Below are positions 1,096 to 42,327 of a DNA stretch of 64,000 bases, in pieces. The DNA is from Eubacteriaceae bacterium. Its GTDB lineage: Bacteria > Bacillota > Clostridia > Lachnospirales > Lachnospiraceae. The position numbers were made by a program, and so were the translations under genes. The notes under the pieces are model-generated. The model saw only the letters and a program-made list of their open reading frames with translations. It made no database searches and was not told where the DNA came from. Each line of letters starts with the position of its first letter. The stretch's first letter is position 1. The stretch lies in assembly GCA_902362455.1 (NCBI GenBank), contig CABIWJ010000005.1, positions 62,001-126,000 on the forward strand. Reading direction: 5' to 3'.

Positions 1096-2736
1096 ATGAA
1101 AAAGTCAGAGAAAGCTATGGTATGTCAAATAAGACGTAGACATATATGCACAATTATGATTGCAATTATGGCTATGATTGTATTCAACATATGGTTTAAC
1201 AGTGTAGAAACTATTGCGGCAGAAACTACAGATATTGTAACGTTTAGCCGGCAGAAATTTACTGAATCTACGTATTCGTTAAAAATAATAGAAATTCATT
1301 TTGTTTCGAAGAAGGATTTGCGGGGAAATGTATTAACAGAAATTAATAAGCAGTCAGGACAGGACATAAGTGTTAAGCAGGATGGCTCTGTAAAGGTATT
1401 TTTGATAGATACAAATAAAGCATATGTGGTAAGTATGAATAATAAGACGATGCAGCCGGATACATGTGCATATATGTTTTCTGATTACATGAGACTTTTA
1501 AAAATCGATTTTACGAATTTCTATACAGGAAATGTAACCAGTATGAAATATATGTTCAGGAGATGTTATGACATAACAAGTATAGATGTAAGTAAGTTTG
1601 ATACACGTAATGTAACTGACATGCAATATATGTTTGCAGATTGTGAGAGTTTGAATTTTCTTAATCTGTCGAATTTTAATACTAAGAAAGTAACATATAT
1701 GCAGTATATGTTTATGGGCTGTACACATTTGAAAGATGTCAATGTATCAAGCTTTAATACGCGCAATGTAACAGATATGAGATATATGTTTGAAGGCTGT
1801 GGTCTTACAAGTATAGATGTAAGTAACTTCGACACATCTAAAGTAACTGACATGGCATCTATGTTTGCAAGCTGTGGTAACTTAAGACACTTAGATGTGA
1901 GTAACTTTGATACATCCAAAGTTACTAATATGTCGGTTATGTTTGGTAGCTGTAGGAATTTAGCAGAATTAGACGTGAGCAACTTTGATACATCTAAAGT
2001 AACCAATATGGGAGGAATGTTTCGAAATATCTATGAAATAAGAGAGTTAGATTTGTCTAATTTCAATACTTCTAATGTTAAGAGTATGTATCAGATGTTT
2101 TATGGCTGTGATAAATTAAAAAGTTTAGATCTGGCTAATTTTGATACATCTAAAGTTACGGACATGACGAAAATGTTCTGGTTTTGTGATGAGCTAAAAA
2201 AAATCGGTGCAAGCAGCAGTTTTAAAGTAAATGTGGAAGCACCGGAAATGTTCGAATATTGTTATGACCTTGAAGGAGGAAGTGGAACAAAATATGTAAT
2301 TGGCGGGAACAACATCGGTTCAGAATTTGCACACATAGATGGAGGAAGCAGTAATCCCGGATATTTTACAAGGACAGGCTGGAAGAAGCAGGGCAATAGC
2401 TGGACTTACATTAAAATTGACGGAAAAAAGACAAAAGGCTGGAAACAGGTTAAGCATAAGTGGTATTATTTTAATGGTTCAGGAATAATGCAGACAGGCT
2501 GGAAGCAGATTAATGGCAACTGGTTCTATTTTAATACTTCAGGTGAGATGAAGACAGGCTGGGGTAAGATTAATAATAAATGGTATTATTTTAATTCAGC
2601 AGGTCATATGCAGACTTCCAAGTGGATAGGTGGAACATATTATGTGAAAGCTGACGGAACAATGGCTATATCTCAATGGGTAGATAATGGCAGATATTAT
2701 GTCGGCGCAGACGGAAAATGGGTAAAGAAAGGTTAA
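1096..2736 (+). CDS. Secreted BspA-like (DUF285) repeat protein with wall-binding repeats
   Basis: A 546-residue exported protein. A basic N-terminus and hydrophobic core (residues about 1-43, ending IAAET) form a Sec signal peptide. Residues about 45-140 are a small domain shared by all five paralogs here (FVSKKDL, GQDIS, YVVSMNN motifs). From residue 141 there are nine 26-residue DUF285 / TIGR02167-type repeats of the pattern NFDTSKVTDM..MF..C..L..LDVS, then a cap ending in HIDGGSSNPGYF. Residues about 429-546 are Gly-Trp/aromatic CW_binding_1-type repeats ending in the module YYVKADGTMA...YYVGADGKWVK. The family is known for adhesive surface proteins; the ligand here is unknown. ATG has an upstream AATGGAGAGAAG ribosome site. 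The next gene starts 4 bases after its stop, so the two are probably translationally coupled. Confidence 0.9.
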   Translation: MKKSEKAMVCQIRRRHICTIMIAIMAMIVFNIWFNSVETIAAETTDIVTFSRQKFTESTYSLKIIEIHFVSKKDLRGNVLTEINKQSGQDISVKQDGSVKVFLIDTNKAYVVSMNNKTMQPDTCAYMFSDYMRLLKIDFTNFYTGNVTSMKYMFRRCYDITSIDVSKFDTRNVTDMQYMFADCESLNFLNLSNFNTKKVTYMQYMFMGCTHLKDVNVSSFNTRNVTDMRYMFEGCGLTSIDVSNFDTSKVTDMASMFASCGNLRHLDVSNFDTSKVTNMSVMFGSCRNLAELDVSNFDTSKVTNMGGMFRNIYEIRELDLSNFNTSNVKSMYQMFYGCDKLKSLDLANFDTSKVTDMTKMFWFCDELKKIGASSSFKVNVEAPEMFEYCYDLEGGSGTKYVIGGNNIGSEFAHIDGGSSNPGYFTRTGWKKQGNSWTYIKIDGKKTKGWKQVKHKWYYFNGSGIMQTGWKQINGNWFYFNTSGEMKTGWGKINNKWYYFNSAGHMQTSKWIGGTYYVKADGTMAISQWVDNGRYYVGADGKWVKKG

Positions 2737-2740
2737 GTTT

Positions 2741-4984
2741 ATGAATATTTTAAAGAAGTTAAAAGTTAATAATAAGAAATATGGTAAGCATATTATGGCA
2801 TTGGTGATTATGGCATTAATGCTGGTTGTATCCGGATTTATTACAGATATGAAGGAAGTTCAGGCAGCAGATAATGCTAAAGTTATCATGTTAAAGAAAT
2901 CTAAATTAAAGGCTGCAGTTCCTGACAGTGCTAAAAATATTGTATTTATTTCGAAAAAGGATATTAGGTCAGATATATCTGCAAAGATAGATAAATTAAC
3001 AGGTACAGATATAAGCATTGATGGTGACAGTTCCATATGTGTGTATTTGGTTGGTGATACATATTATGTAGTAAGCATGAATAATGCAATAATGGCTATA
3101 GATGAATGTGATATGCTTTTTAAATATTATTCACAATTAGAAACGGTTGAATTTCGCAACTTTGATATACGTTATGTAGAAAGTATGAGTTATATGTTTG
3201 AAAGATGTCAAAGCCTTAAGAAAATAGATTTAAGTGGACTTGATGCGCGATATGTAACAGATATGTATGGGATGTTTAGTAACTGCTATGACCTCACAGA
3301 GGTTAACCTGAGCGGACTTAATACGGAAAATGTGACTAATATGGGAGATATGTTTGAAAAGTGCAGGGAACTTACAAAAGTTAATTTAAGCGGAATTAAT
3401 ACTAAAAATGTGGACAGTTTTGTTGGCATGTTTAGTGAGTGTAGTAATCTCAAGGAACTTGATCTTAGCAGTTTCAATACGGGTAGTGCGAGAAAAATGG
3501 ATCAAATGTTTGCAGAATGTTCTATGCTTGAAAAACTGGATGTAAGCAGTTTTAATACGGAATATGTTACCAGTATGAGATATATGTTTAAAAATTGTGA
3601 CTCTCTAACAAGTCTTGATTTAAGAGGATTTAATACGCGATATGTCATAGATATGGGAGCCATGTTTATGAATTGTGGGAAACTTACAACACTTAATTTA
3701 AAAGCATTCAGAACTGATAATGCCAGTAATATGGGCTGCATGTTTTCAGGCTGCACATCACTTAAAAGTATAGACGTAAGTCATTTTAATACGGAATATG
3801 TATCAAATTTTAACGGAATGTTTGAAAATTGCAGTTCATTAACCTCAATAGATGTAAGCAAATTTAAAACATCAAGGGCTGGAATGTGGGGGATGTTTAT
3901 GGGTTGTAGTTCATTACAAAGCATAGACATAAGTAATTTTGAATTCAACGAGGCAGAATGGCTTGAGAGTATGTTTGAAGGATGCTCGTCACTCAAAAGC
4001 ATAAAGATGCCTAAAGCCAAGGCTGCGAATGTTACAAGAATGGCAAAGATGTTTCAAGGCTGTAAGCAGCTAAAAAGTATAGATGTAAGCTGGATAACAT
4101 CAGATTCTATATACACAATTGAGAATATGTTTAACGGGTGTACATCATTACAGAGTGTTAATCTTGGCAATCTTAATACGAAGAAAATAAGTGATTTCAG
4201 CTATATGTTTGGTGATTGTACATCATTGCAGGGAGTCAATTTAAGTTCATTTGATACAAGAAATGGAAGTAAATTTGATGGAATGTTTAAAAATTGCAGA
4301 GCTTTAACAAGTGTTAGCTTAAGAAGCTTCTCTACTGCAAAAGCTACATCATTTGACAGCATGTTTGAAAATTGTAATGCACTCAAATCGGTATATGTTA
4401 ATAAATTTGATGTAGGAAGCGCAACTGTGAATAATATGTTTAGAAATTGTTATAGCATTACAGGAGGCAATGGCACAAAGTATTCAGGTTCAAAGAGTGC
4501 ATATGTGCGTATAGACGGTGGAAGTGCGAAACCGGGCTATTTAAATAAAGTTGGTTGGATTAAAAAAGGAAACAAGTGGACATATAAAAAACTTGATGGA
4601 AGTCTTCAGACAGGCTGGATGAATCTTGATAAAAAATGGTATGCATTTAATGCTAATGGTGAAATGTATTCTGCTTGCTGGGTTAAATCAAGTGGAAAAT
4701 GGTATTATGTTAATGAGTCAGGCGAAATGCAGACGTCAAAATGGCTGAAATTAAGCAATAAATGGTATTATGTAGGTAAAGATGGAATAATGCAGACAGG
4801 TTGGCAGCAGATAAATAAAAAGTGGTATTGTTTTGATGCCAGTGGTGTAATGCAGACATCTAAGTGGATAAGCAATACTTATTATGTAAAAGCTGATGGA
4901 ACCATGGCAGTATCTGAATGGGTAGATGGTGGCAAATATTATGTCGGAGCTGACGGCAAGTGGGTTAAAGGGGCAAAGAAGTAG
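2741..4984 (+). CDS. Secreted BspA-like (DUF285) repeat protein with wall-binding repeats
   Basis: A 747-residue paralog of the preceding gene. The signal peptide covers residues about 1-43 (ending VQAADN), the shared N-terminal domain follows, and sixteen 26-residue repeats plus a cap run from about residue 140 to 567. The repeats are more degenerate than in the neighbours (for example FRTDNASNMGCMF and ITSDSIYTIENMF). Wall-binding aromatic repeats fill about 604-747. The start lies 4 bases after the previous stop, and its ribosome site (AAAGAAAGG) sits inside the previous gene. The last 170 bases of coding repeat are almost identical to the 3' end of the gene at 6123-8216, which points to recent gene conversion. 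Function beyond surface display or adhesion is not readable. Confidence 0.9.
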   Translation: MNILKKLKVNNKKYGKHIMALVIMALMLVVSGFITDMKEVQAADNAKVIMLKKSKLKAAVPDSAKNIVFISKKDIRSDISAKIDKLTGTDISIDGDSSICVYLVGDTYYVVSMNNAIMAIDECDMLFKYYSQLETVEFRNFDIRYVESMSYMFERCQSLKKIDLSGLDARYVTDMYGMFSNCYDLTEVNLSGLNTENVTNMGDMFEKCRELTKVNLSGINTKNVDSFVGMFSECSNLKELDLSSFNTGSARKMDQMFAECSMLEKLDVSSFNTEYVTSMRYMFKNCDSLTSLDLRGFNTRYVIDMGAMFMNCGKLTTLNLKAFRTDNASNMGCMFSGCTSLKSIDVSHFNTEYVSNFNGMFENCSSLTSIDVSKFKTSRAGMWGMFMGCSSLQSIDISNFEFNEAEWLESMFEGCSSLKSIKMPKAKAANVTRMAKMFQGCKQLKSIDVSWITSDSIYTIENMFNGCTSLQSVNLGNLNTKKISDFSYMFGDCTSLQGVNLSSFDTRNGSKFDGMFKNCRALTSVSLRSFSTAKATSFDSMFENCNALKSVYVNKFDVGSATVNNMFRNCYSITGGNGTKYSGSKSAYVRIDGGSAKPGYLNKVGWIKKGNKWTYKKLDGSLQTGWMNLDKKWYAFNANGEMYSACWVKSSGKWYYVNESGEMQTSKWLKLSNKWYYVGKDGIMQTGWQQINKKWYCFDASGVMQTSKWISNTYYVKADGTMAVSEWVDGGKYYVGADGKWVKGAKK

Positions 4985-5101: not shown

Positions 5102-5131
5102 TTGACATTTTATCGGTATACCGATAAAATG
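5102..5131 (+). promoter_or_regulatory. Sigma-A promoter with embedded 26-bp palindromic operator
   Basis: TTGACA (5102-5107) and TAAAAT (5125-5130) are separated by exactly 17 bases. A perfect 26-base palindrome runs from 5106 to 5131, centred on CGGTATACCG, and therefore fills the whole spacer and the -10 box. The predicted transcript start (about 5137) leaves a leader of only about 14 bases. This is the layout expected for a tightly autoregulated HTH gene; the binding protein is inferred to be the product of the next gene. Confidence 0.85.
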
Positions 5132-5150
5132 GTTTTAAGAGGTGAAGACT

Positions 5151-6071: not shown

Positions 6072-6122
6072 TAAAGATAAAGATTGAAAATATATATTAT
6101 TTCAGAGAAAATGGAGGAACTT

Positions 6123-8216
6123 ATGAAAATGAATAAGAAAAAGATCACTAAAAGTATAAGATGTGTAATTACAACATTGGTTGTGATTATGACAATTCTT
6201 ATTGGAAGTATGTATGTTAATTATGTAAAGGCTGATGCGGCAGAGAATATAGAAATATTTAATGATCGCGTGATGCGTAAAGCCATTGATGCTGACTGCG
6301 AAGAAATCATATTTATTTCTAAAAAGGATCTTCCTAAAACTGTGGCAGATAAGATAAACAAAATGAATGGAATAGACCTAAGTGAAAAAATGAATGGTTC
6401 AATAAAGCTATTTAAAATTGATAATTCATACTATATTGTCAGTATGAATAATGCCATAATGTCAATATCGGCTGGTGACTTTATCTTTTCGTATTATAAA
6501 GAATTAAAAAGCATAAAGTTTAATAATTTTGATACACGATATGTAACTGATATGAAATATATGTTTGCAGAAAGCGGGAAGCTTAAAGAACTTGATTTAA
6601 GTGGCTTCAATACAAGTAAAGTTACAGATATGTCTAGAATGTTCCAAGGCTGTAGTAGTCTTGAGAAAGTAAATATAAGCTCATTTAATACTAAAAATGT
6701 AACAAGTATGTATGGAATGTTCGATGGATGTAAGGTGCTTAAGAATATTGATGTTAAGGGATTTGATTCCCGGAATGTAACAAATATGGGCACGATGTTT
6801 CTTGGGTGTAATGCACTTGAGAATATCAATGTTAAGGGATTTGACACTCGAAATGTAACAGAGATGGGCTATATGTTCAGCGGCTGTGAATTATTAACCG
6901 GTATTGATGTAAGCTCATTTAATACATCTAAGACAACTAGTGTTGTTGGAATGTTTTATGGATGTACATCATTAAAAAGTATAGATGTAAGTAATTTTGA
7001 TACGCGTAATATACAATATATGACAGCAATGTTTGCTGATTGCAGTTCATTAACACAGATAGATGTAAGTAATTTCAGAACTCCAAAACTTATTACGATA
7101 GCGGGGATGTTTAATAATTGCAGCAAATTAAGAAGCATAGATATAAGTAATTTTGATACAAGTAATGTAGAAACAATTTATAGAATGTTTGCTGGCTGCA
7201 AATTGCTTACTAATCTTAAGCTGCCCAAAACTAAGATTACTAAAGTAGATGATATGGAAGAATTATTTAATGACTGTTCGTCTTTAAGAAGTGTAGACTT
7301 AAGTATATTTGATACGAAGAATGTAAAATACTTTGACAAAATGTTTAGAAATTGTTATTCACTAACCAGTCTGGACCTGACAACTTTTACAACAACAAAC
7401 GCAATAAAAATGAACAATATGTTTGAAAGCTGTATTGCATTGAAATCTGTATATGTGAAGAATTTTGATACAGCAAATGCTCAGAGAAAAAATATATTTA
7501 AGAATTGTTATAGTATTGTAGGTGGCGAAGGAACAAAATATTCAGTGGATAAAGATGAATATGCAAGAATAGATGGTGGAAGTTCTAAGCCGGGCTACCT
7601 TAGACAAGTTGGCTGGATTAAAAAGGGGGCAAAATGGAGTTATAAGAATTATGATGGAAGTCTTAAGACAGGCTGGCAGCAGATAAATAAAAGGTGGTAT
7701 TATTTCAATGCAAATGGAGTAATGCAGACAGGCTGGCAACAGATAAATAAGAAGTGGTATCATTTCAATGCAAGCGGAGAGATGCAGACAGGCTGGCAGC
7801 AGATAAATAAAAAGTGGTATTATTTCAATGCAAATGGAGTAATGCAGACAGGCTGGCAACAGATAAATAAGAAGTGGTATCATTTCAATGCAAGCGGAGA
7901 GATGCAGACAGGTTGGCAGCAGATAAATAAAAAGTGGTATTATTTCAATGCAAATGGAGTAATGCAGACAGGCTGGCAGCAGATAAATAAAAAGTGGTAT
8001 TATTTCAATGCAAGTGGAGAGATGCAGACAGGTTGGCAGCAGATAAATAAAAAGTGGTATTGTTTTGATGCCAGTGGTGTAATGCAGACATCTAAGTGGA
8101 TAAGCAATACTTATTATGTAAAAGCTGATGGAATCATGGCAGTATCTGAATGGGTAGATGGTGGCAAATATTATGTCGGAGCTGACGGCAAGTGGGTTAA
8201 GAGTGCTAAAAAATAA
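6123..8216 (+). CDS. Secreted BspA-like (DUF285) repeat protein with amplified wall-binding repeats
   Basis: A 697-residue paralog. The start at ATG 6123 is chosen because GGAGG (6113-6117) sits 5 bases upstream; an in-frame ATG further up lies before the ribosome site. The signal peptide covers residues about 1-39 (VKADAAEN), then comes the shared N-domain, twelve 26-residue DUF285 repeats plus cap (about 134-460), and wall-binding repeats (about 496-697). Seven of the wall repeats (7671-8090) are near-identical 60-base units arranged as alternating 120-base pairs, a recent tandem amplification. It follows the broken XRE cassette by about 50 bases and precedes another DUF285 gene by about 50 bases, with no terminator seen between the two. 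Confidence 0.9.
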   Translation: MKMNKKKITKSIRCVITTLVVIMTILIGSMYVNYVKADAAENIEIFNDRVMRKAIDADCEEIIFISKKDLPKTVADKINKMNGIDLSEKMNGSIKLFKIDNSYYIVSMNNAIMSISAGDFIFSYYKELKSIKFNNFDTRYVTDMKYMFAESGKLKELDLSGFNTSKVTDMSRMFQGCSSLEKVNISSFNTKNVTSMYGMFDGCKVLKNIDVKGFDSRNVTNMGTMFLGCNALENINVKGFDTRNVTEMGYMFSGCELLTGIDVSSFNTSKTTSVVGMFYGCTSLKSIDVSNFDTRNIQYMTAMFADCSSLTQIDVSNFRTPKLITIAGMFNNCSKLRSIDISNFDTSNVETIYRMFAGCKLLTNLKLPKTKITKVDDMEELFNDCSSLRSVDLSIFDTKNVKYFDKMFRNCYSLTSLDLTTFTTTNAIKMNNMFESCIALKSVYVKNFDTANAQRKNIFKNCYSIVGGEGTKYSVDKDEYARIDGGSSKPGYLRQVGWIKKGAKWSYKNYDGSLKTGWQQINKRWYYFNANGVMQTGWQQINKKWYHFNASGEMQTGWQQINKKWYYFNANGVMQTGWQQINKKWYHFNASGEMQTGWQQINKKWYYFNANGVMQTGWQQINKKWYYFNASGEMQTGWQQINKKWYCFDASGVMQTSKWISNTYYVKADGIMAVSEWVDGGKYYVGADGKWVKSAKK
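7671..8090 (+). repeat. Seven tandem 60-bp repeats in a 120-bp higher-order pattern
   Basis: The sequence repeats with exact 60-base periodicity, each unit encoding a 20-residue wall-binding repeat (GWQQINKKWYYFNANGVMQT type). Alternate units are more alike than adjacent ones (NANGV versus NASGE versions), so 120-base blocks were copied. Differences between matching blocks are one or two bases, consistent with recent slippage or unequal crossing over. Confidence 0.9.
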
Positions 8217-8265: not shown

Positions 8266-10785
8266 ATGCACAAAGAAAAAGCAATTAAAAAAATAAGATA
8301 CGTGATTACGACGTTAGTAGTGTTTATGGCTGCCATCATGGGAAAATCGTATTTTAGTGTGGTGGAAGCGAATGCAGAAGAAACGGAACATAGTGCAGTA
8401 TATGTCGAATCTAAAGGTGAAGATTCAATAAGTGCTGTACAGGTGACATCTAATAATGTAGCTGCATCTGAAGATAAAAGCAGTAATGTGAAAACAGGTT
8501 GGCAGAAAATAGACGGTAAATGGTATTATTATGATTCTAATTCAGTATTGCAGAAGTCGAAGTGGATAAACACAAATAGTAAATGGTACTATGTAGATAA
8601 AACAGGCGAAATGCAGACATCAAAGTGGATAAATGCAAAAAACAAGTGGTACTATGTAAGCAAAACAGGTGAAATGCAGACATCGAAATGGATAAACGTA
8701 AAAAACAAGTGGTACTATGTAGGCAAAACAGGTGAAATGCAGACATCAAAGTGGATAAATGTAAAAAACAAGTGGTACTATGTAAGCAAAACAGGTGAAA
8801 TGCAGACATCGAAATGGATAAACGTAAATAGCAAGTGGTACTATGTAAATAAAACAGGTGAAATGCAGACATCAAAATGGATAAGCAGTACATACTACGT
8901 AAAAACTGATGGAAGTATGGCAGTGTCTGAATGGGTAGACAATAACAAATATTATGTTGGTGAAGATGGAAAATGGATAAAAACAGTCGTAAAAGGTCAG
9001 ACAATTAAGTTTGGCATAGAGCCATTCAAAAAAGCAGTCCCATCTACTGCTACAAAGATACATTTCATAAGTAAAAAAGATATGCCGGCTGATGTGGCAG
9101 CTAAGTTAAATTCGCAGAAAGGCACAGACATCAGTTCGGATAATAATGGTGTAATAAAAGTATATGCAATAGGTACAGAATATTATGTTGTAAGCATAAC
9201 TGATGAAAAAATGGGACCTAACAATTGTCCGTATATGTTTATGGATTATAAAATATCGGATATAGAATTTAAAAATTTTGATACGTCAAATGTAACGAAT
9301 ATGTCCTGCATGTTTGCAGGTTGTAGTGAATTAAAAGAGTTAAACATAAGCAATTTTGATACATCAAAAGTAAGAGATATGTCAGACATGTTTTACTCAT
9401 GCAGTGAATTAATTGAATTGTATTTAGGTAACTTTAATACATCAAATGTAACAAATATGCGTAACATGTTTGAGAAGTGCAGCAAATTAAAAGAGTTAAA
9501 TTTAAGCAATTTTAATACATCGAAAGTAACAGATATGTCAGATATGTTTTTTGGATGTGGTAATTTAAGTGAATTAAATATAAGTAATTTTAATACGTCG
9601 AAAGTAATAGATATGTCATATATGTTTGCCTGCTGTAGATCGTTGAGCCGGTTAAATGTAGATAACTTTAATACATCTAATGTAAAAACCACGAGCTTTA
9701 TGTTTAAAGAATGTAGCAAATTAAATGAATTAAATTTAAGCAGTTTTAATACATCTAATGTAACAGATATGAAGTATATGTTTATGGGATGTAGTGGGTT
9801 GAAACAGTTAAACGTAAGCAGTTTTAATACATCTAATGTATATGACATGAGATATATGTTTATAGATTGTGGTGAATTAAATCAATTGGATTTAAGCAAC
9901 TTTTATACATCGAAAGTAACAGATATGTCACATATGTTTAGTGGTTGCAGCGGATTAAATAAACTGGATATAAGCAATTTTGATACATCAAGAGTTATAG
10001 AGATGCAATATATGTTTAGTGAATGTAGTGGGTTGACCAGTCTGGATTTGAAAAACTTTAATACACAATATGTAACAAATATGCATATGATGTTTAAAAA
10101 CTGTAGCAAATTAACACGATTGAATGTAAGCAGCTTTGATACTTCAAATGTAGTAAGCATGTATCATATGTTTAGTGGCTGCAGTTCATTAAGGAGTCTG
10201 GAATTGAGCAGATTTGATACTTCGTCAGTAACAATGATGGATAACATGTTTGATGGCTGCAGCAATTTAAGTAATCTGGATTTAAGTAACTTTAATACAT
10301 CAAGAGTTATAGAGATGCAATATATGTTCAGGGACTGCAGTAAATTGGAACAATTGGATATAAGCAGATTTAAAACATCTAAAGTAACTAATATGCGATA
10401 TATGTTTAGTGGCTGCAGTTCATTAAATAAATTAGATATAAGTAGTTTTGATACATCTAAAGTAACAGATATGTCACATATGTTTGCATATTGCAGTGGA
10501 TTAAGCCAATTGGACATAAGTAGCTTTAATACGTCCGAAGTAACGCATATGGGAGGTATGTTCTATACTTGTTTAAATATCAGCACAATATATGCAAACA
10601 ATAAATTTAATGTTGATAATGTCATAGAAGGTGATAACATATTTTATGGATGTAATAAACTTACAGGTGCAAAAGGAACGAAGTATGGAATGTATAAAAG
10701 TGATATAAAATATGCACATATAGATGGAGGTTCATCTAATCCGGGATACTTTACACAGACAGGCTTTATGAAAGACGGCAATTAA
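8266..10785 (+). CDS. Secreted DUF285 protein with reversed domain order, C-terminus lost
   Basis: An 839-residue protein starting at ATG 8266 (GGAGG at 8251-8255; an in-frame TTG further up is not favoured). After the signal peptide (about 1-40, ending ANAEE), wall-binding repeats come first (about 77-240, including five 63-base units), then the shared N-domain (about 241-330). Seventeen very regular 26-residue DUF285 repeats follow (about 335-778), then the cap with HIDGGSSNPGYF. The other paralogs carry wall repeats only at the C-terminus. Here the frame ends at TAA 10783 right where a C-terminal wall-binding segment would begin, and remnants of that segment follow in 10786-10970. The protein may still bind the wall through its N-terminal repeats. 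Confidence 0.85.
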   Translation: MHKEKAIKKIRYVITTLVVFMAAIMGKSYFSVVEANAEETEHSAVYVESKGEDSISAVQVTSNNVAASEDKSSNVKTGWQKIDGKWYYYDSNSVLQKSKWINTNSKWYYVDKTGEMQTSKWINAKNKWYYVSKTGEMQTSKWINVKNKWYYVGKTGEMQTSKWINVKNKWYYVSKTGEMQTSKWINVNSKWYYVNKTGEMQTSKWISSTYYVKTDGSMAVSEWVDNNKYYVGEDGKWIKTVVKGQTIKFGIEPFKKAVPSTATKIHFISKKDMPADVAAKLNSQKGTDISSDNNGVIKVYAIGTEYYVVSITDEKMGPNNCPYMFMDYKISDIEFKNFDTSNVTNMSCMFAGCSELKELNISNFDTSKVRDMSDMFYSCSELIELYLGNFNTSNVTNMRNMFEKCSKLKELNLSNFNTSKVTDMSDMFFGCGNLSELNISNFNTSKVIDMSYMFACCRSLSRLNVDNFNTSNVKTTSFMFKECSKLNELNLSSFNTSNVTDMKYMFMGCSGLKQLNVSSFNTSNVYDMRYMFIDCGELNQLDLSNFYTSKVTDMSHMFSGCSGLNKLDISNFDTSRVIEMQYMFSECSGLTSLDLKNFNTQYVTNMHMMFKNCSKLTRLNVSSFDTSNVVSMYHMFSGCSSLRSLELSRFDTSSVTMMDNMFDGCSNLSNLDLSNFNTSRVIEMQYMFRDCSKLEQLDISRFKTSKVTNMRYMFSGCSSLNKLDISSFDTSKVTDMSHMFAYCSGLSQLDISSFNTSEVTHMGGMFYTCLNISTIYANNKFNVDNVIEGDNIFYGCNKLTGAKGTKYGMYKSDIKYAHIDGGSSNPGYFTQTGFMKDGN

Positions 10786-14697: not shown

Positions 14698-14753
14698 TAG
14701 ACAATCTACTTTTTGCGTGTTATTATGGAAATGTAGCACAAAAAAAGTAGATT
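14698..14753 (+). promoter_or_regulatory. Promoter of the first amylase gene with inverted repeat around the -10
   Basis: TAGACA (14698-14703) and TATTAT (14721-14726) are 17 bases apart. A perfect 12-base inverted repeat, AATCTACTTTTT (14703-14714) and AAAAAGTAGATT (14742-14753), flanks the -10 box. The left arm lies upstream of the predicted transcript start, so it cannot act as an RNA hairpin with the right arm; a protein binding site is more likely. Confidence 0.55.
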
Positions 14754-18721: not shown

Positions 18722-18745
18722 TATCCGTCTAATGACTTAAACAAT

Positions 18746-31345: not shown

Positions 31346-31425
31346 GTATAAAAGTATATAAGTATATAGATTGATATATAACTTAAAAATAGTAATACAT
31401 TTGGAAGATATGGGAGATGAAAAAT

Positions 31426-33309
31426 ATGAGAAACACAGTAGTGAGAATTATGAAATACATATTTATGGCAGCTATATTTGCGGGTACGTTATCAGTAAGC
31501 TTTTATAGTGGAAAATATGTGTGCGAAGCAGCAGAAGTTAATGATAATGAATTAGATAACAATGAAACCGGTATACAGGAGAAGCAATACATAAAAGATT
31601 TTACAATCAATACAGTTGATGCACCAAGGGTTGGTAATATTGCTCCGACTATTATTAGTAATTATAACAATATGTTTAAGATAACTGATGTGGAGTGGAA
31701 GTGCGAAGAAGATTCGGAATTCAAAGCAGGTGATGTATTTAATGGAAATTCTACATATACACTCATATTAAGACTTACCCCTAATGATAATTATGAATTC
31801 ACAACAGAAATGACAGATGGTGGATTAAAATATAATGGAAGCTATTTCGTATGGGTAAAGTACGACAATGTATCAGACAGAATGGAAGATAACAGTCTGG
31901 TTTTAGAAATAACATTTAAGACTGATAATGTAATCAAAGATTTATACTTTACACTTGATAAAGAAGTATGGACCAAATATATAATTGGACAATATGCAAC
32001 TAAGGCAAGTAAGCAGTTTGCTGATGAAGTAATTAATGTAGATAGCAAAGATAGTGACAGATATTGTATTGACAGGAATAATTCATTTCTTGGACAATTA
32101 AATAATTCATATATAAACTATAATCTGAAAGGAAGAATACTATTAGATGCGCAGTATGTGATGTGCATAACAGTTTTAAGAACAGGAGATTATACATTTG
32201 ACAGCATTACATCAGAGATGAATATTTATCTGAATGGTGAAAAAGTGGCAGTTAGAGATATCTCATATAATAGTAATTGGGATATGTATTACATATATAT
32301 CGATGCACCGGCTCCGGGAACAGGTGTCGTCGATTATGATATAAAAGTGAATAATGGAACAACTTATGATGATTTGAATAATGCAATATCCGTATCTGAA
32401 AAGGATAAATTAATTACATTGGTTGCAGATAATCCGGCAAAGGGTAAAGTGTTTGATAAATGGGTATGTTCAGATGGAAACGTGGTATTTAATGATGAAA
32501 ATAATGCAACAACTACATTTGTAATGCCTGATAATGATGTTGAGATAACAGCTGAATATAGATATGTTGATGAATCTATGATAATCGGATGGAAAGAGAT
32601 TGATGGTAAGATGTATCATTTTAACGAAGAAGGAATTATGGATACATCAAAGTGGATAGATAATAAATATTATGTCAAAGAAGATGGAGCGATGGCGGTT
32701 TCAGAAATAGTCGATAATGGAAACCATTATGTGGATTCACAGGGAAGATTTGTATATACTACAAAATGGGTTATGGCAGATAATGTGTGGTATTATGTGA
32801 TAACAGGTACAGTTCAGAAGAATAAATGGTTGGTGCAAGGTAAAAAGTGGTATTATTTTGGTTCAGATGGAGCAATGTTAACATCACAATGGCAAAAGAT
32901 AAATGGCAAATGGTACTATTTTGATGCAGATGGAGTAATGCAGACATCAAAATGGATTAGTGGCAAATATTATGTTAAATCTGATGGCACAATGGCGGTT
33001 TCAGGTTTTGTTGACTCTGGTAAATATTATGTAGATGCGAATGGCAGATGGATAAAGACTACAAAGTGGCTTAAAGTAAACAACAAGTGGCACTATATAG
33101 TTTCTGGCAGAGTCCAGATGTCTAAATGGCTTAATATAAATGGCAAATGGTACTATTTTGATGCAGATGGAGTAATGCAGACATCAAAATGGATTAGTGG
33201 AAAATATTATGTTAAGGCCGATGGAACAATGGCAATTTCTGAATGGGTTGATACAGGAAAATATTATGTCGGTGCCGATGGCAAATGGATTAAGGAATAT
33301 GGCAGATAA
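31426..33309 (+). CDS. Secreted protein of two unrecognised modules (B-A) plus wall-binding repeats
   Basis: About 627 residues from ATG 31426 (GGGAG 9 bases before; ATG 31417 is an alternative). Signal about 1-37. Residues about 55-165 are module B (WKCEEDSEFKAGDVFNGNST, LRLTPNDNYEF). Residues about 170-305 are module A (DLYFTLDKEVWTKY, MNIYLNGEKV, DISYNSNWDMYYIYI). Both also occur in the gene at 35631-37616 and match no family that I can name. Residues about 304-382 resemble a divergent InlB B-repeat (GKVFDKWVCSDGNVVF, FVMPDNDVEITAEYRY). Wall-binding repeats fill about 388-627. The frame overlaps the start of the broken sensor kinase by about 11 bases, so the two were once coupled. The role is probably surface binding, which is inference. 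Confidence 0.8.
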   Translation: MRNTVVRIMKYIFMAAIFAGTLSVSFYSGKYVCEAAEVNDNELDNNETGIQEKQYIKDFTINTVDAPRVGNIAPTIISNYNNMFKITDVEWKCEEDSEFKAGDVFNGNSTYTLILRLTPNDNYEFTTEMTDGGLKYNGSYFVWVKYDNVSDRMEDNSLVLEITFKTDNVIKDLYFTLDKEVWTKYIIGQYATKASKQFADEVINVDSKDSDRYCIDRNNSFLGQLNNSYINYNLKGRILLDAQYVMCITVLRTGDYTFDSITSEMNIYLNGEKVAVRDISYNSNWDMYYIYIDAPAPGTGVVDYDIKVNNGTTYDDLNNAISVSEKDKLITLVADNPAKGKVFDKWVCSDGNVVFNDENNATTTFVMPDNDVEITAEYRYVDESMIIGWKEIDGKMYHFNEEGIMDTSKWIDNKYYVKEDGAMAVSEIVDNGNHYVDSQGRFVYTTKWVMADNVWYYVITGTVQKNKWLVQGKKWYYFGSDGAMLTSQWQKINGKWYYFDADGVMQTSKWISGKYYVKSDGTMAVSGFVDSGKYYVDANGRWIKTTKWLKVNNKWHYIVSGRVQMSKWLNINGKWYYFDADGVMQTSKWISGKYYVKADGTMAISEWVDTGKYYVGADGKWIKEYGR

Positions 33310-35241: not shown

Positions 35242-35371
35242 AAATGACAGAGCAGTAATTATAATGTGTTTTGCACGTAGTAAAACCGGCATAAACCTTA
35301 GATATAAATATTCAATGAAATTGTTTAAAGCAGAAATGAATAAAAAGCAATAATTTCAGAATGGAGACCGA

Positions 35372-35455: not shown

Positions 35456-35630
35456 AACTGATAGGGTATTAATAGACTTTTTCTTATATAATACTCTATA
35501 TAGCATATACATTTGACAGGATAAGAGTAAATGGTATGAAAATTAATTGAGTTGAAGTTTTTTCGTGGAACTGTATGCATGAAACATGCAGGTTTATATG
35601 AATAATCGTTCGAAGACGAGGAGGAATTAT

Positions 35631-37616
35631 ATGAAAAAAAGATTAAGCAAATTAATGAGTTTTTTTCTGGCGTTAGCGATGATAATCGGGATATTACCGG
35701 CAATTGCACACGCAGAAGAAACAGAGAACGTGATTCTTAATGAAATTTATCTGACAATTGACAAATCAGCATGGACGCTATATCAGGTCGGACAGGATGC
35801 CATGGCAGCAGAAAGACAGCTGTTATGCGATGCATTGGATGTTGGAGAAGCAAATAAAGACATGTATAGTGTAGATATTCTTAATACAGCGTTAAAGTAT
35901 GTGGACGGTTCAAGTTCAGAGGCTGTGAAGGAAGGAGATGCGATTGAAGAAGGGAAAAAATACAGATGTCATTTTATAGTAGATCCTAAAAATCAATATA
36001 ATTTTAACAGGAATAAGAATAATATAACTGTATATTTAAATGGTGTAAAGGTGACACCTATTTTATTGAGTTACAACGAATACTGGAAATGTTACCGTAT
36101 TGAATTAGATATTCCTTTCGCACCGGCTGCACGTCCGGAAGCTATAAATATTACAGATTTTGAAATTGCTACAGGTAAAGTAAAAGCCGGTCGTACTTCT
36201 AAAACATCTATTGAGAGTAAAAACGTAGCATTTGAGATAAGCAAGTTAGAGTGGACTTGTGATAATGATTCAGAATTTAAAGCCGGAGATGTATTTAAAG
36301 AGAATTCTACATATAAACTGGCATTAACACTTACACCAAATAAAGGTTATAAATTTTCGGTTGATGATAAAACTAAAGAGTACAATGGTAAATATATAGT
36401 AAATGATACAAATTATAGTACTAGCAGCTGCAGAATGGATGGCTCTGATTTGATTCTTGAATATAAATTTAAAACGAATGCAATAACCAGAGATATTTAC
36501 CTGACGGTTGATTATTCTGCATGGAGTAAATTTAAGGAGGGTGCAGATGGTGGAGAAGCAGCTGACCAGTTTAAAAATGAGATAACAGGTGTAATTGCGA
36601 ATGATATTTATTATCTGAACATAGTGAACACACATTTAATTTATGTAGGAGATGGCAATTCATGGTATTTAGTTAAAGCCGGACATGTTATATCAAAAGA
36701 TGTGTGTTATATGATGAGATTTAGTGTAAGTCCAAGAAATGGACAGGTATTTGATGATAATTCGGAAAATATGAATGTGTACATCAACGGAACAAAAGTT
36801 GAAACGGAAGAACTTACGTATAATGAATACTGGGGCAACTATGTTATAGTAAAAGAAGTTCCGGTTAAACCAATGGAAGATGTCATACTTACCGGCTGGC
36901 AGAAAGTAGATGATAACTGGTATTATTATGATAAGACAGGTGTTAAACAGGTATCTAAATGGATTAAATCAGGAACAAAATGGTACTATGTAGATGCAAA
37001 CGGCGTAATGCAGACATCTAAATGGATAAATGGAAACTACTATGTGAAAGCCGACGGAACAATGGCAATCTCAGAATTTGTCGACAAAGGTAATTATTAT
37101 GTTGGTAAAGACGGCAAATGGGATAAAGGAACTAAGTGGATTAAGTCAGGTGGTAAATGGTATTATATAGTATCAGGTAAAGTTCAGAAGTCAAAATGGA
37201 TGCAGATAGGCAAGAAATGGTACCACTTTAATAAAGACGGCATAATGGAGACATCTAAATGGATAGGCGGAAACTATTACGTAAAAGCTGATGGAACAAT
37301 GGCAATCTCAGAATTTGTCGACAAAGGTAATTATTATGTTGGTAAAGATGGCAAATGGGATAAAGGAACTAAGTGGCTTAAGTCAGGCGATAAATGGTAT
37401 TATATAGTATCAGGTAAAGTTCAGAAGTCAAAATGGGTACAGATAAGTAAGAAATGGTATCATTTTGATAAAGACGGCATAATGGAGACATCTAAATGGA
37501 TAAGCGGAACATATTATGTAAAAGCTGACGGAACGATGGCAATTTCGGAATGGGTTGACGGTGGTAAATACTATGTTGGCTCTGATGGAAAATGGATTAA
37601 AGGATATAAGAAATAG
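35631..37616 (+). CDS. Secreted protein of modules A-B-A plus wall-binding repeats
   Basis: A 661-residue protein from ATG 35631 (AGGAGG at 35619-35624). Signal 1-28 (AIAHAEE). Module A occurs at about 30-163 and again at about 284-415 (DIYLTVDYSAWSKFKEG, MNVYINGTKVETEELTYNEYW), with module B between (about 166-283; LEWTCDNDSEFKAGDVF, LTLTPNKGYKF). The A copies share NEIYLT/RDIYLT, a Trp in SAW, INTxLxYV and the YNEYW ending. No catalytic signature is visible, and I do not recognise the family. Wall-binding repeats (about 420-661) contain three YYVKADGTMAISE modules. It is a paralog of the 31426 gene, on the other side of the dead two-component genes. Confidence 0.8.
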   Translation: MKKRLSKLMSFFLALAMIIGILPAIAHAEETENVILNEIYLTIDKSAWTLYQVGQDAMAAERQLLCDALDVGEANKDMYSVDILNTALKYVDGSSSEAVKEGDAIEEGKKYRCHFIVDPKNQYNFNRNKNNITVYLNGVKVTPILLSYNEYWKCYRIELDIPFAPAARPEAINITDFEIATGKVKAGRTSKTSIESKNVAFEISKLEWTCDNDSEFKAGDVFKENSTYKLALTLTPNKGYKFSVDDKTKEYNGKYIVNDTNYSTSSCRMDGSDLILEYKFKTNAITRDIYLTVDYSAWSKFKEGADGGEAADQFKNEITGVIANDIYYLNIVNTHLIYVGDGNSWYLVKAGHVISKDVCYMMRFSVSPRNGQVFDDNSENMNVYINGTKVETEELTYNEYWGNYVIVKEVPVKPMEDVILTGWQKVDDNWYYYDKTGVKQVSKWIKSGTKWYYVDANGVMQTSKWINGNYYVKADGTMAISEFVDKGNYYVGKDGKWDKGTKWIKSGGKWYYIVSGKVQKSKWMQIGKKWYHFNKDGIMETSKWIGGNYYVKADGTMAISEFVDKGNYYVGKDGKWDKGTKWLKSGDKWYYIVSGKVQKSKWVQISKKWYHFDKDGIMETSKWISGTYYVKADGTMAISEWVDGGKYYVGSDGKWIKGYKK

Positions 37617-37811: not shown

Positions 37812-39596
37812 ATGGCATGGTATGACGAGGCAATATTTTATCACATTTATCCGTTAGGATTAGCAAATGCTCCAAAACAGAACGAATATAAGGAGCCGGA
37901 ACATAGATTAAACAATTTGATTCCATGGATTAAACATATCAGGGAAATTGGATGTAATGCATTGTATATAGGACCTCTTTTTGAATCAGTTGGACATGGT
38001 TATGAGACAACGGATTATAAGAAGTTAGATTCAAGACTTGGAACAAATGAAGACTTAAAAAAATATGTTAAGGAATGTCATAAACAGGGCATAAGAGTAA
38101 TATTTGATGGTGTATTCAACCACACAGGAAGAGATTTTTTCGCATTTAAAGATATTCAGAAGAATAGAGAAAATTCACAATATAAAAATTGGTATTGTAA
38201 CGTGAATTTCTGGGGAAATAATGAGTATAATGACGGATTCTCCTATGATAACTGGGGAGGATATAACCTCCTGGTTAAACTGAATCAGCAAAATCCTGCA
38301 GTTCAGGATTATATCTGTGATGTAATCAGATACTGGGTATCAGAATTTGATGTTGATGGTATCAGATTAGATGCGGCAGATGTACTCGATTTTGGATTTA
38401 TGCATCAGCTTAGAAGGGTTGCAAATGAAGTAAAACCGGAATTCTGGCTGATGGGCGAAGTAATTCATGGAGATTATAATAGATGGGTTAATGAAGGAAC
38501 ACTTCATTCAGTAACTAACTACCAGTTACACAAAGCACTTTTTTCGGGACATAATGACCATAACTATTTCGAGATTGCACATACAGTAAGACGTTTATAT
38601 AGTATGGGTGGAAACAGCCCCGAGGGACTTAAATTATATAATTTTGTAGATAATCATGATGTTGAGAGAATATATACAAAGCTTAATAATAAGGCACAGT
38701 TTTCGCCTGTACATGTTCTTCTGTATACACTTCCAGGTATTCCATCAATTTATTATGGTTCAGAATTTGGAATTGAAGGACGTAAAGAGAAGTCTTCTGA
38801 TGATTCATTGAGGCCGGCAATTAATCTGGATGATTATAAAGATGCAATTAAGAAAAACAGTTGTACAAGTCTTGTTGCAGCACTTGGTAAAATAAGACAG
38901 AATGTAAAGGCATTATCATATGGTGATTATCAGGAGAGACTGCTTACAAATGAACAGTATGCATTTGCAAGAAACCTGGATGGAGACACAGTTGTGATAA
39001 CAGTTAATAATGCAGACCATGAGGCGGATATTACAGTTGGTGCAGGCAGCGCTGATGAGTATTATGGTGCACTTACAGGCCAGAGAGTTAAAGTCGAGAA
39101 TGGTTGTATTAATATTAAACTCGAAGCTAATTCAGGGGAAATATGGCTTCCGGATTATATGAAGATAGCCGACCTCAAACCTGTAGCTGTAAAGACTGCG
39201 AAGAAGGTGGATGTAAAGAAGTCAGAAGGTAAACAGGTTCCTGGATTAGATAATACGAATTACACAAAGTCAGACGTTAAGCCAGATTATGAGTCAGATA
39301 ATAATACTAAGTCAGAGAATAAAGCAGATAGTGAAAGTAAAGAGCAATCGGTTAAGATGAATAAAGATAAGACAGATTCAACAGAAGCAGGCTCTAATAA
39401 TCTGAATTCTGATAAAATCGAAGTTGTAGAAGTTGATATGAGCAAGCCTTATGAAGATATGACAGTAACAGAACTTCAGAATGTCATTTTAGGTAAATTA
39501 GCAAGTAATGGTCCGGTAACAGATCAGATGAAGAAGGATGTTGCAGAAAATATTTATCATGATTCATTGGTTAACTGGGCTAAGAGTTTTAGATAA
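37812..39596 (+). CDS. Cytoplasmic GH13 cyclomaltodextrinase/neopullulanase-like enzyme with odd C-terminal tail
   Basis: 594 residues, no signal peptide; ATG 37812 follows AAAGGAG. The GH13 barrel (about 1-370) starts directly at WYDEAIFYHIYPLG. It has DGVFNHTG, DGIRLDAADVL with Asp187, LMGEVI with Glu216 and VDNHDVER with Asp283, and GIPSIYYGSEFG. A beta-sandwich domain C ends at about 450 (NSGEIWLPDYM). It would hydrolyse cyclodextrins, short maltodextrins or pullulan fragments imported after surface digestion. Unusual for such enzymes is a Lys/Asp/Asn/Ser-rich linker (about 460-540) followed by a small predicted helical domain (about 540-594; YEDMTVTELQNVILGKLASNG, MKKDVAENIYHDSLVNWAKSFR). 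It is the only non-secreted enzyme among the glycan genes. Confidence 0.88.
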   Translation: MAWYDEAIFYHIYPLGLANAPKQNEYKEPEHRLNNLIPWIKHIREIGCNALYIGPLFESVGHGYETTDYKKLDSRLGTNEDLKKYVKECHKQGIRVIFDGVFNHTGRDFFAFKDIQKNRENSQYKNWYCNVNFWGNNEYNDGFSYDNWGGYNLLVKLNQQNPAVQDYICDVIRYWVSEFDVDGIRLDAADVLDFGFMHQLRRVANEVKPEFWLMGEVIHGDYNRWVNEGTLHSVTNYQLHKALFSGHNDHNYFEIAHTVRRLYSMGGNSPEGLKLYNFVDNHDVERIYTKLNNKAQFSPVHVLLYTLPGIPSIYYGSEFGIEGRKEKSSDDSLRPAINLDDYKDAIKKNSCTSLVAALGKIRQNVKALSYGDYQERLLTNEQYAFARNLDGDTVVITVNNADHEADITVGAGSADEYYGALTGQRVKVENGCINIKLEANSGEIWLPDYMKIADLKPVAVKTAKKVDVKKSEGKQVPGLDNTNYTKSDVKPDYESDNNTKSENKADSESKEQSVKMNKDKTDSTEAGSNNLNSDKIEVVEVDMSKPYEDMTVTELQNVILGKLASNGPVTDQMKKDVAENIYHDSLVNWAKSFR

Positions 39597-39600
39597 AGAT

Positions 39601-39735: not shown

Positions 39736-39792
39736 AGAAGTTGAATTGGAACGAAATCAGACTGAACTATATCATTAAAGAGAGGTGCTCAT

Positions 39793-42327
39793 ATGGTAAA
39801 ACGAAAGTATTTTAAGCGATTTTTTGCAATAACCCTGGCAACAATGACATTTATATCGACAGTTAATTTTCAGGGTATGATTGCGAAGGCAACAGACGAT
39901 GATAATGAATATGTAACTTATGATAAAGCATATGGTTACATAGACAATGGTTATGTTGCACCAAGATTAGATGTCACAGAAAGCAATGAAGGACTATGTC
40001 AGGCGGCAGCTATTCCTGCTAAATATGACTCAAGGGATTATGGATATGTAACGCCTGTAAGGAATCAGGGAAGATGGGGAACATGTTGGGCTTTTGCGGC
40101 AATTGCAGCCATGGAATCTACAGCATTAAGCCATGGTGTAGCTGATAATAAAGACACACTTGATATGTCAGAATATAATGTTGTATATATGGCATTTGAT
40201 GACAGAACATTTGTTGACCCATTAGGTGGAACGGATGGCGATAATACATATACTGATGATATGACTGCCGCATTAAGCAGAGGTGGTAATCAGACTATGG
40301 TATTCAGAGCTATGAGTAAGTGGGCAGGTATGGTAAATGAAAGCGACTGTGTTTATCCGGGTGCAACAGCTACAACATATAGCTATGATGCATCAAAATT
40401 GCAATATATATTAACTGGTGTCAGACAGATAAACATGCAGGACAGAGATTACGTTAAGAAAGCTGTTATGGAAAATGGTGCAGCAAGTATGTATTATTAT
40501 GATTCTGACAATTATGCTAATAACGAATATTATTATAATTATGAGATTAAATCTACCAATCATGCAGTAACGATTGTGGGTTGGGACGACACAATCAGTA
40601 GGGATAATTTCAAATCCACAGATTCAAATGGAAAAGTGTATGTGCCTGAGGGAGATGGTGCATGGCTGATTAAGAATAGCTGGGGTTCATACAATTACAG
40701 AACTAATGGCGGATATATGTGGATATCTTACTATGATTTAAGTGCTAAATCAGGAAATGCAACATATTATGAAGTCGCTAAGAAGGATTCATATGATTAT
40801 AATTACCAGTATGATGGTAATACAGAAATTGGTTATGGTCTTATGGGTTCTACAGGAGCAGATTTTATATTAGCCAATAAATATGCAAATGTATTTACTG
40901 TAAAGAAGGGCACAGGAACACAGAAACTTGATGCTGTAGCATTTAGTGTTAAGGATGCAAATACATCTTATTCAATCCAGATTTATAAGAATCCTGCACT
41001 TAATGTTGAAGATGCTAATGGTACAATAACAGGAAATACAGATAATCCTGAGAGTGGAACACCGTTACTTGATACACCGGTTACAGGAAAGACAACATTT
41101 GCAGGTTATTATACAGTAAATATGCCGAGCACAGTTAAACTAGATGAGGGTGATACATTTGCTATCGTGATTACATTTGATGATGAGACATCAATGGATT
41201 ACTCATATATATATTCTGCTACTGCTGGAATTACCAGTGTATCACGTAATAATGAAAGTTATTATGCACCATCAGGAAAATTAGTGGATATGTATGAAAC
41301 ATATTTAAAAAAATACAGCATAAATATGTGCATAAAGGCATTCACAAGCAAAGTATCAGACAAATTATCTGTGCCACAGATAACTAAAGCTGAATCAACG
41401 GATAATAACAGTGCAAGGCTTGAATGGCAGAATGTAGATGGAGCAGAAGGATATGAACTGTTCAGAAGTACTGAGAAAAATGGAACATACAATATGTTAG
41501 GAAGCTTTACTGACAATTCATATGTGGACAATTCGGTCAGATGCGGAAAAAAATACTATTATAAAGTAAGAGCATACAAGACTTTTTCGGGTGAAAGAAT
41601 TTATTCTGATTATTCAACAGTACAGGTTGTAGTTATCGACATTCCAATAAAAGGATGGCAGAAAATAAATAATGTATGGTATTATTATAATTCAAATGGT
41701 GAGCTGCAGACATCAAAGTGGATTAAATCCGGAGCAAAATGGTATTACGTGGACCAGACCGGAGCAATGCAGACTTCTAAATGGGTTAAAATCAGTACAA
41801 AATATTATTATTTTGATAAATCCGGAGTAATGCAGACTTCAAAGTGGATAGGCAGCAGATATTATGTAAAAGCAGATGGTAGTATGGCAACATCTGAGAT
41901 AGTAGATAATGGCAGATACTATGTTGATGGTAAAGGTATCTGGGTAAAGGATACAAAATGGCTGAAATTATCAGGAAAATGGTACTATCTTAAGAATGGA
42001 ACAGTACAGACTTCAAAATGGCTTAAGATAGGAAATAAAAGTTATTATTTTGATAAAAAAGGAGTAATGCTGACATCTAGGTGGATAAAAACCAATGGTA
42101 AATGGTATTATGTAAATGCCAATGGAATAATGCAGGTTTCAAAATGGCTTAAAATTGGAAGCAAATGGTATTATGTAAATGCTGATGGAATAATGCAGAC
42201 ATCAAAATGGATAAGTGGTACATATTACGTAAAGGCAGATGGAACAATGGCGATTTCTGAATGGGTAGATGGTGGAAAGTATTACGTTGGCTCAGATGGA
42301 AAATGGATTAAAAATTATAAAAAATAA
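39793..42327 (+). CDS. Secreted papain-family (C1A) protease with lectin-like, FN3 and wall-binding modules
   Basis: An 844-residue protein; signal about 1-34 (IAKATDDD), short pro-region, then a C1A cysteine-protease domain (about 77-335). Gln92 and catalytic Cys98 are in RNQGRWGTCWAF, His257 in TNHAVTIVGW and Asn295 in IKNSWGS. Residues about 336-520 form a beta-rich lectin-like domain often attached to bacterial C1 peptidases. About 530-615 is an FN3 domain (ARLEWQNVDGAEGYELFRS, KYYYKVRAYKT), and 618-844 are wall-binding repeats. All catalytic residues are present, so it should be active on the cell surface. It might process surface proteins or dietary protein. AGAGAGGTG precedes the ATG. 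Confidence 0.92.
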   Translation: MVKRKYFKRFFAITLATMTFISTVNFQGMIAKATDDDNEYVTYDKAYGYIDNGYVAPRLDVTESNEGLCQAAAIPAKYDSRDYGYVTPVRNQGRWGTCWAFAAIAAMESTALSHGVADNKDTLDMSEYNVVYMAFDDRTFVDPLGGTDGDNTYTDDMTAALSRGGNQTMVFRAMSKWAGMVNESDCVYPGATATTYSYDASKLQYILTGVRQINMQDRDYVKKAVMENGAASMYYYDSDNYANNEYYYNYEIKSTNHAVTIVGWDDTISRDNFKSTDSNGKVYVPEGDGAWLIKNSWGSYNYRTNGGYMWISYYDLSAKSGNATYYEVAKKDSYDYNYQYDGNTEIGYGLMGSTGADFILANKYANVFTVKKGTGTQKLDAVAFSVKDANTSYSIQIYKNPALNVEDANGTITGNTDNPESGTPLLDTPVTGKTTFAGYYTVNMPSTVKLDEGDTFAIVITFDDETSMDYSYIYSATAGITSVSRNNESYYAPSGKLVDMYETYLKKYSINMCIKAFTSKVSDKLSVPQITKAESTDNNSARLEWQNVDGAEGYELFRSTEKNGTYNMLGSFTDNSYVDNSVRCGKKYYYKVRAYKTFSGERIYSDYSTVQVVVIDIPIKGWQKINNVWYYYNSNGELQTSKWIKSGAKWYYVDQTGAMQTSKWVKISTKYYYFDKSGVMQTSKWIGSRYYVKADGSMATSEIVDNGRYYVDGKGIWVKDTKWLKLSGKWYYLKNGTVQTSKWLKIGNKSYYFDKKGVMLTSRWIKTNGKWYYVNANGIMQVSKWLKIGSKWYYVNADGIMQTSKWISGTYYVKADGTMAISEWVDGGKYYVGSDGKWIKNYKK

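Follow-up and report, generated by a model that had tools for sequence, protein, structure and literature searches.

The pneumococcal choline-binding proteins (LytA, PspA and CbpA) and the lic pathway (LicA, LicB, LicC, LicD and TacF) are the closest described counterparts of the locus analysed here, a run of thirteen repeat-bearing proteins encoded within 1096-42327 of a 64,000-nucleotide stretch of DNA from a Eubacteriaceae bacterium (contig CABIWJ010000005.1). We refer to this whole stretch, the DNA analysed, as the window. The locus and the pneumococcal system appear to share the repeat type, the terminal module and a non-covalent anchor. In a sister genome, G522, the likeness extends to the pathway itself as described in PMC13385700, with a cassette containing LicA, LicC and LicD homologues and a flippase gene. 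Where pneumococcus uses LicB this cassette has a BCCT transporter gene; also unlike pneumococcus, LicC and LicA form a single fusion protein with a winged-helix segment ahead of them, and the passengers of the anchor are amylases and PARCEL proteins.

Repeat-anchored polysaccharidases, an amylase included, were described from Butyrivibrio proteoclasticus in 2010, in what was given as the first report (PMC2914790). In strain B316 these large cell-associated enzymes, a GH13 amylase among them, include Amy13A and Xyn10B; the PF01473 repeats at their C-termini are believed to fasten them to the wall (PMC2914790, PMC5716241). These papers describe nine such proteins with the peptidoglycan wall as support, whereas the window has thirteen within 41 kb, beside a choline transporter gene; the word choline is absent from the main text of PMC2914790. 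The same paper describes an amylase of B. fibrisolvens 16/4 that is held by an LPXTG-type signal.

The amylosome of Ruminococcus bromii resembles the locus in combining GH13 with CBM26, in the kinship of Amy4 and Amy16 with enzymes of the window, and in its MucBP modules, which occur in Amy10 and Amy12 (PMC5814915). Amy4 and Amy16 carry dockerins, and Amy4 also a cohesin (PMC5814915), where the window's proteins have choline-binding repeats instead. PARCEL (DUF285) proteins are known to carry TIGR02167 repeats (PMC2996958); in the window, choline-binding repeats are joined to them. The main text of that paper does not contain the words choline, cell wall or PF01473. Sus-like and Gram-positive polysaccharide loci likewise bring several amylases and binding proteins of the cell surface together in one stretch of DNA.

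Here we present evidence that the thirteen proteins are choline-binding proteins gripping phosphocholine on the cell's own surface polymer, a reading to which we assign a probability of about 0.76. Repeat-anchored amylases (in Butyrivibrio) and choline as ligand of this repeat type (in a review) were already known. What is new is the linkage of the repeat proteins to a lic cassette, together with the finding of such an anchor on enzymes related to those of the R. bromii amylosome, and the analysis adds genomic support for choline as the ligand in this bacterial group. Among the papers listed in our searches of the open-access literature, we saw none that links repeat-anchored enzymes to a choline cassette.

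Results

The window has a GC content of 34%. Of its 40 listed open reading frames (ORFs; at least 150 amino acids), 34 were scanned against Pfam, leaving aside five antisense ORFs and a longer version of the end of the BCCT gene. Repeats of the Choline_bind_1/2/3 families (PF01473, PF19085, PF19127) scored above the curated cut-offs in all thirteen proteins, which are encoded on the same strand. Five of these are DUF285 proteins and four are GH13 amylases; the others are two proteins with A/B modules, an NlpC/P60-ELLD protein that also has SH3, and a C1 peptidase of the papain family (Table 1). PF03382 was present in every DUF285 protein, and the one of the five scanned for it matched the PARCEL repeat TIGR02167 at 295.7 bits. 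CBM26 occurred in 4/4 repeat-bearing amylases; that of amylase 2 (scanned as 19082-23650) was unlisted in the full-length scan and reached 48.3 bits (cut-off 28.1) when the piece was scanned alone. The preliminary description, which had reported thirteen proteins with one repeat system and the same domain content, was thus confirmed.

Twelve of the thirteen end in a module of the type YYV..DGTMA..V..YYV..DGKW, in line with the earlier statement that nearly all do. The sole exception is DUF285 protein 4, whose repeats are N-terminal; a broken remnant of a C-terminal module follows its stop in another frame (10786-11055). No LPXTG-like motif was seen in the last 80 residues of any of the thirteen, as previously stated, and neither dockerin nor cohesin (PF00404, PF00963) was found in them at E<=0.001. 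G522 itself has one sortase match, at 31.1 bits (cut-off 26.6). An N-terminal hydrophobic segment was recognised in 13/13 by a home-made heuristic. The suggestion that hydrolases, adhesin-like proteins and proteases share one type of non-covalent anchor is supported.

The two A/B-module proteins are 37% alike. No Pfam family passed its cut-off for the module and no clear fold match was obtained, although modelling suggests that its middle part is Ig-like. All thirteen proteins listed in a search with the module carry repeats; one is the query's own identical match, and the search is incomplete, since A/B protein 1 is absent from the list.

In alignments, the end module of A/B protein 2, like its family in a profile search, matches the C-terminal end of 4cnl, a solved pneumococcal surface protein that we take to be CbpL. 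It also aligns with the repeats of 7pl2, presumably LytB, and both structures came ahead of toxin repeats. In 7/7 repeat proteins scanned, the NCBIfam PspA/PspC choline-binding models outscored the glucan-binding repeat, a weak indication, as all scores are below cut-offs and the models differ in length. A review names choline residues as the ligand of PF01473 repeats generally, with at least three repeats needed per choline, and places such repeats as common in Lachnospiraceae among others (PMC5817068); choline was therefore already the textbook guess.

Relatives were drawn from 397 genomes of one family, chosen after a class search with asparaginyl-tRNA synthetase (291 genomes). The family is probably Lachnospiraceae, in keeping with the preliminary description and judging by the source names of close relatives: two repeat-bearing ones, P0020 and P0027, are named Lachnospiraceae bacterium. 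A DNA search of this sample returned G522. Its identity with the window is 96-98% across the end of BCCT and the corresponding stretches of amylases 1 and 2, and about 90% for parts of amylase 4. By these identities, G522 and the window's strain belong to the same or sister species.

On contig C70 of G522, polymer-synthesis genes (sugar transferase, glycosyltransferase, Wzy) are followed by a LicC-like gene, a LicC-LicA fusion, the BCCT gene, a flippase gene (Polysacc_synt), LicD (145 bits), amylase 1 and amylase 2. The fusion (L035 13318-15186) consists of an N-terminal winged helix, a nucleotidyltransferase and a choline kinase, and its best solved relatives are the choline kinase 4r77 and the CTP:phosphocholine cytidylyltransferase 1jyk. 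Window positions 1-673 are 98% identical to the BCCT gene within this cassette, and identity (97%) resumes 71 bases after the G522 LicD, shortly before the start of amylase 1. The lic cassette of G522 thus sits at the orthologous place, directly upstream of the amylases. The BCCT gene and amylases 1, 2 and 4 are matched in G522, whose orthologous place lacks the DUF285 block and amylase 3. A short repeat-tail remnant between BCCT and flippase in G522 suggests that a repeat gene once stood there too. DUF285 was found in only 1/8 genomes of the G522 genus, there without repeats (by pattern), and is absent from the orthologous site in G522; the DUF285 half of the locus is accessory. LicD was found in 4/8 genomes of that genus.

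The preliminary description had left the wall ligand unnamed. The lic cassette of G522, the relatives of its fusion and the likeness of the terminal module to 4cnl lead us to correct this: the ligand of the window's repeats is probably phosphocholine.

This link extends across the family. Genomes were called repeat-rich at >=10 Choline_bind_3 matches and fusion-bearing at E<=1e-50; by these thresholds 57 of the 397 were both, 26 had the fusion only, 44 were repeat-rich only and 270 were neither (odds ratio 13.5, p 1e-21, not corrected for kinship). With other cut-offs for a repeat-rich genome the odds ratio was 10.6-23; when one repeat match sufficed for a genome to be counted, it was 2.8-9.1. 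At E<=1e-20, matches to the fusion, some partial, occurred in 116/397 genomes. The link is also positional, and in this form less prone to kinship bias than co-occurrence: 17 of 106 listed repeat matches in fusion-bearing genomes lay within 5 kb of the fusion (15/41 genomes), with 0.32 expected, a count that used the 150 best listed repeat matches and a size of 3.2 Mb for most genomes. Among 16 fusion neighbourhoods read, BCCT adjoined the fusion in 12 and LicD-like genes lay beside it in 4. Repeat genes adjoined it in 9, of which 7 had been picked for that, leaving 2/9 among the rest.

Among solved structures, R. bromii Amy4 (668 bits; next 426) comes nearest to amylase 1. For amylase 2 it is R. 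bromii Amy16 (232 bits), with Bacillus-type alpha-amylases close behind at 224-226 bits. No R. bromii enzyme was among the matches listed for amylase 3, which is a paralogue of amylase 4 (64% identity). Of the analogy with amylosomes drawn in the preliminary description, kinship with amylosome enzymes is supported; neither dockerin nor cohesin was present in the scanned ORFs. The GH13 kind of amylases 3 and 4 has at least 7999 relatives at E<=1e-50, and repeats were present in 6 of the best 120 listed. In relatives' loci outside G522, repeats were found by pattern in 0/37 related amylase frames (five cut by contig ends), compared with 2/2 in G522. These counts indicate that some lineages have added the repeats, as an anchor, to widespread enzyme cores. 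For the A/B module the pattern appears reversed, all its listed relatives carrying repeats.

The anchor tails of the amylases look exchanged. Over the last 110 residues the window's amylases 1 and 2 are 92% identical. For amylase 1 of the window and its counterpart in G522 the figure is only 68%, although their catalytic parts agree at 95%. The tails of amylases 2 and 4 are 77% identical between strains, and that of the window's amylase 4 is closer to G522 amylase 2 (83%). The G522 copy of amylase 2 is the shorter one, and no amylase 3 separates it from amylase 4 there. The pattern (window 18017-23650 and L036) points to exchange of repeat tails within a genome, a concerted evolution among the amylases, with draft-assembly error at the repeats as a second possible source. 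The tails of DUF285 protein 5, the NlpC protein and the C1 peptidase are only 56-66% alike to those of the amylases.

Most genes of the locus are 94-467 bases apart. The intergenic gaps suggest three co-transcribed pairs (DUF285 1-2, DUF285 3-4 and NlpC-DUF285 5), the remainder being predicted as separate units. By pattern, no strict cre or LacI-type operator was found, nor an operator common to the amylases; the one loose cre-like match, at 8363, lies inside a gene. Compared with shuffled sequence, one stretch had fewer promoter-like sites (84 vs 111.6, standard deviation 10.8) and the other had more (138 vs 110.6, standard deviation 9.8), so these counts decide nothing. Unlike Sus-like and Gram-positive loci, the locus contained no SusC/D, sugar ABC transporter or other sugar transporter, and no intact specific regulator, in the Pfam scan; elsewhere in the window there was only a PfkB/PTS set at 50.8-53.8 kb. 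With no dedicated transporter or regulator, shared operator or single operon seen, the coordinated, Sus-like apparatus previously proposed is not supported. Degenerate two-component fragments lie between the two A/B genes (33197-35627, with sensor-kinase fragments at 33197-35241). They consist of a sensor part resembling HisKA_7TM (PF16927), one further fragment and a short stub that looks like the beginning of a response regulator.

Table 1. Features of the locus and its left edge, in window coordinates
Feature	Position	Strand	Evidence
BCCT choline/betaine/carnitine transporter, 3' end, cut by window edge	3..728	+	PF02028 182.7 bits
DUF285/PARCEL protein 1, C-terminal choline-binding repeats	1096..2736	+	PF03382, PF01473, PF19085; TIGR02167
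DUF285 protein 2, C-terminal choline-binding repeats	2741..4984	+	Pfam scan; 4 bases 3' of protein 1
DUF285 protein 3, C-terminal choline-binding repeats; possible TTG start 6084	6126..8216	+	Pfam scan
DUF285 protein 4, N-terminal repeats; possible TTG start 8242	8266..10785	+	Pfam scan
NlpC/P60-type (ELLD) endopeptidase-like + SH3_3 + choline-binding repeats	11056..12666	+	PF25309, PF08239, PF00877, PF01473
DUF285 protein 5, choline-binding repeats; alternative ATG 12687	12702..14603	+	Pfam scan
Interrupted inverted repeat ATCTACTTTTT...AAAAAGTAGAT, preceding amylase 1 and shared with G522	14704..14752	.	sequence pattern
Amylase 1: GH13 + 2 CBM26 + choline-binding repeats; possible TTG start 14792	14864..18721	+	Pfam scan
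Amylase 2: GH13 + CBM26 + MucBP + choline-binding repeats	19094..23650	+	Pfam scan
Amylase 3: GH13 + 2 Big_2 + CBM26 + MucBP + choline-binding repeats	23745..27191	+	Pfam scan
Amylase 4: same domains as amylase 3 (paralogue)	27426..31214	+	Pfam scan
A/B-module protein 1 (InlB-like B-repeat domain) + choline-binding repeats	31417..33309	+	PF18998, PF19085
A/B-module protein 2 + choline-binding repeats	35628..37616	+	Pfam scan
Fifth GH13, cyclomaltodextrinase/neopullulanase-like	37812..39596	+	PF00128 180 bits; NF041090 best but below cut-off
Papain-family C1 peptidase + Lectin_like + choline-binding repeats	39793..42327	+	PF00112, PF18560, PF19085

The fifth GH13 has neither a hydrophobic start nor repeats and is probably intracellular. 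Inside the DUF285 block (5108-6083) lies a gene for a 175-residue protein that matches no Pfam or NCBIfam model, with a perfect palindrome, TTTTATCGGTATACCGATAAAA, upstream and a second short ORF downstream; from its layout the segment looks like a small autoregulated cassette, possibly of toxin-antitoxin type. A Clostridiales-1 RNA was detected at 62204-62371 (-), at 129.6 bits.

Discussion

Together these data support a model where the thirteen proteins are docked on phosphocholine. The BCCT transporter would import choline, which the LicC-LicA fusion, with the second LicC-like enzyme, would phosphorylate and activate to CDP-choline. LicD would then add phosphocholine to the repeat unit of a wall or capsule polymer, and the flippase, TacF-like by analogy only, would export the decorated unit. 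The beta-hairpin repeats, C-terminal in all cases except one with N-terminal repeats, would hold the proteins on the phosphocholine of that polymer, so that CBM26 starch-binding amylases, adhesin-like PARCEL and A/B-module proteins, the wall endopeptidase and the papain-like protease would dock there. We infer that the window's strain makes such a polymer. Binding would be choline-dependent, and the thirteen proteins may act together on starch.

Several observations weigh against this reading. LicD, choline kinase and flippase were not seen in the window, which holds only the BCCT end and has the DUF285 block and the NlpC gene where G522 has flippase and LicD. G522 is itself a 1.8 Mb draft, and among the four LicD genes of the genus (3.7 kb read around each) only that of G522 lies within the cassette. 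Across the family, 26/83 fusion-bearing genomes are not repeat-rich and 44/101 repeat-rich genomes lack the fusion at E<=1e-50; a choline kinase over the cut-off was found in only 10 of these 44 (control: 3/44 repeat-poor genomes), leaving 34/101 with none. In about a third of repeat-rich genomes, therefore, the ligand may differ or the assembly may be incomplete. In genome G717 (L032 1-3051, -) the neighbours of LicD are a nucleotidyltransferase and a class-V aminotransferase. Such genes might serve some other decoration, aminoethylphosphonate for example; they perhaps hint at a polymer decoration other than choline, and at a possible repeat ligand in kinase-free genomes. Finally, the canonical repeats, examined in DUF285 protein 3, match clostridial toxin and glucosyltransferase repeats as well as choline-binding proteins, some of the toxin matches having the better E-values, so these repeats alone are indecisive on the ligand.

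This last point, the starch context of the locus and the 34 kinase-free genomes would fit repeats that bind alpha-glucan or another sugar, as in glucosyltransferases and clostridial toxins, and so hold the proteins on substrate or capsule. We consider this quite improbable: the terminal module found in twelve of the thirteen is closest to choline-binding proteins (A/B protein 2 and its family compared), CBM26 already provides starch binding, the peptidase and the protease bear the same anchor, and the choline cassette repeatedly adjoins repeat genes. It is likewise unlikely that the repeats bind some other wall component, be it peptidoglycan or a polymer without choline decoration, while the cassette serves a different glycan or choline metabolism. 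The discordant fusion and repeat counts would be expected in that case, as would LicD elsewhere in three genus genomes, one of them G717, and the Butyrivibrio papers do name the peptidoglycan wall (PMC2914790, PMC5716241). Against it, fusion and repeats are linked both statistically and by position, the terminal module is like the C-terminus of a pneumococcal surface protein, and choline is the ligand that the review names for PF01473 (PMC5817068). Phosphocholine is therefore the likely ligand in the window's strain, perhaps not in all repeat-bearing relatives.

A different question, compatible with phosphocholine as ligand, is whether there is any starch or adhesion apparatus. The locus may instead be a choline-anchored gene cluster that grows and shrinks by recombination via its repeats, with neighbours acting independently, and we rate this at somewhat short of even odds. 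The amylase anchors look exchanged, with tails more alike within the window than between orthologues, the orthologous place in G522 has a repeat-tail remnant but neither the DUF285 block nor amylase 3, and no shared operator or single operon was seen. However, four CBM26 amylases and a fifth GH13 in one stretch form a functional grouping, repeat-rich draft assemblies can be chimeric, and the divergent tails of DUF285 protein 5, the NlpC protein and the C1 peptidase show that not all anchors are homogenised. Beyond the docking of the thirteen proteins on phosphocholine, we tentatively propose, with more doubt than conviction, that in these gut Clostridia the phosphocholine polymer substitutes for a scaffoldin. 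Relatives of R. bromii amylosome enzymes, adhesins and proteases would be gathered on it by their repeats rather than by dockerin and cohesin, anchors would recombine, and free or dietary choline would set how much of the starch machinery is retained.

If phosphocholine docking is correct, a repeat family that is widespread in gut Lachnospiraceae would have a named, testable small molecule as its wall ligand in these bacteria, and anchoring of the pneumococcal type would carry starch-degrading enzymes in commensals. Related amylase cores would then be held by different anchors in different bacteria, by dockerin and cohesin in R. bromii, an LPXTG-type signal in B. fibrisolvens 16/4 and choline-binding repeats here, and choline supply would be linked to the surface display of amylases.

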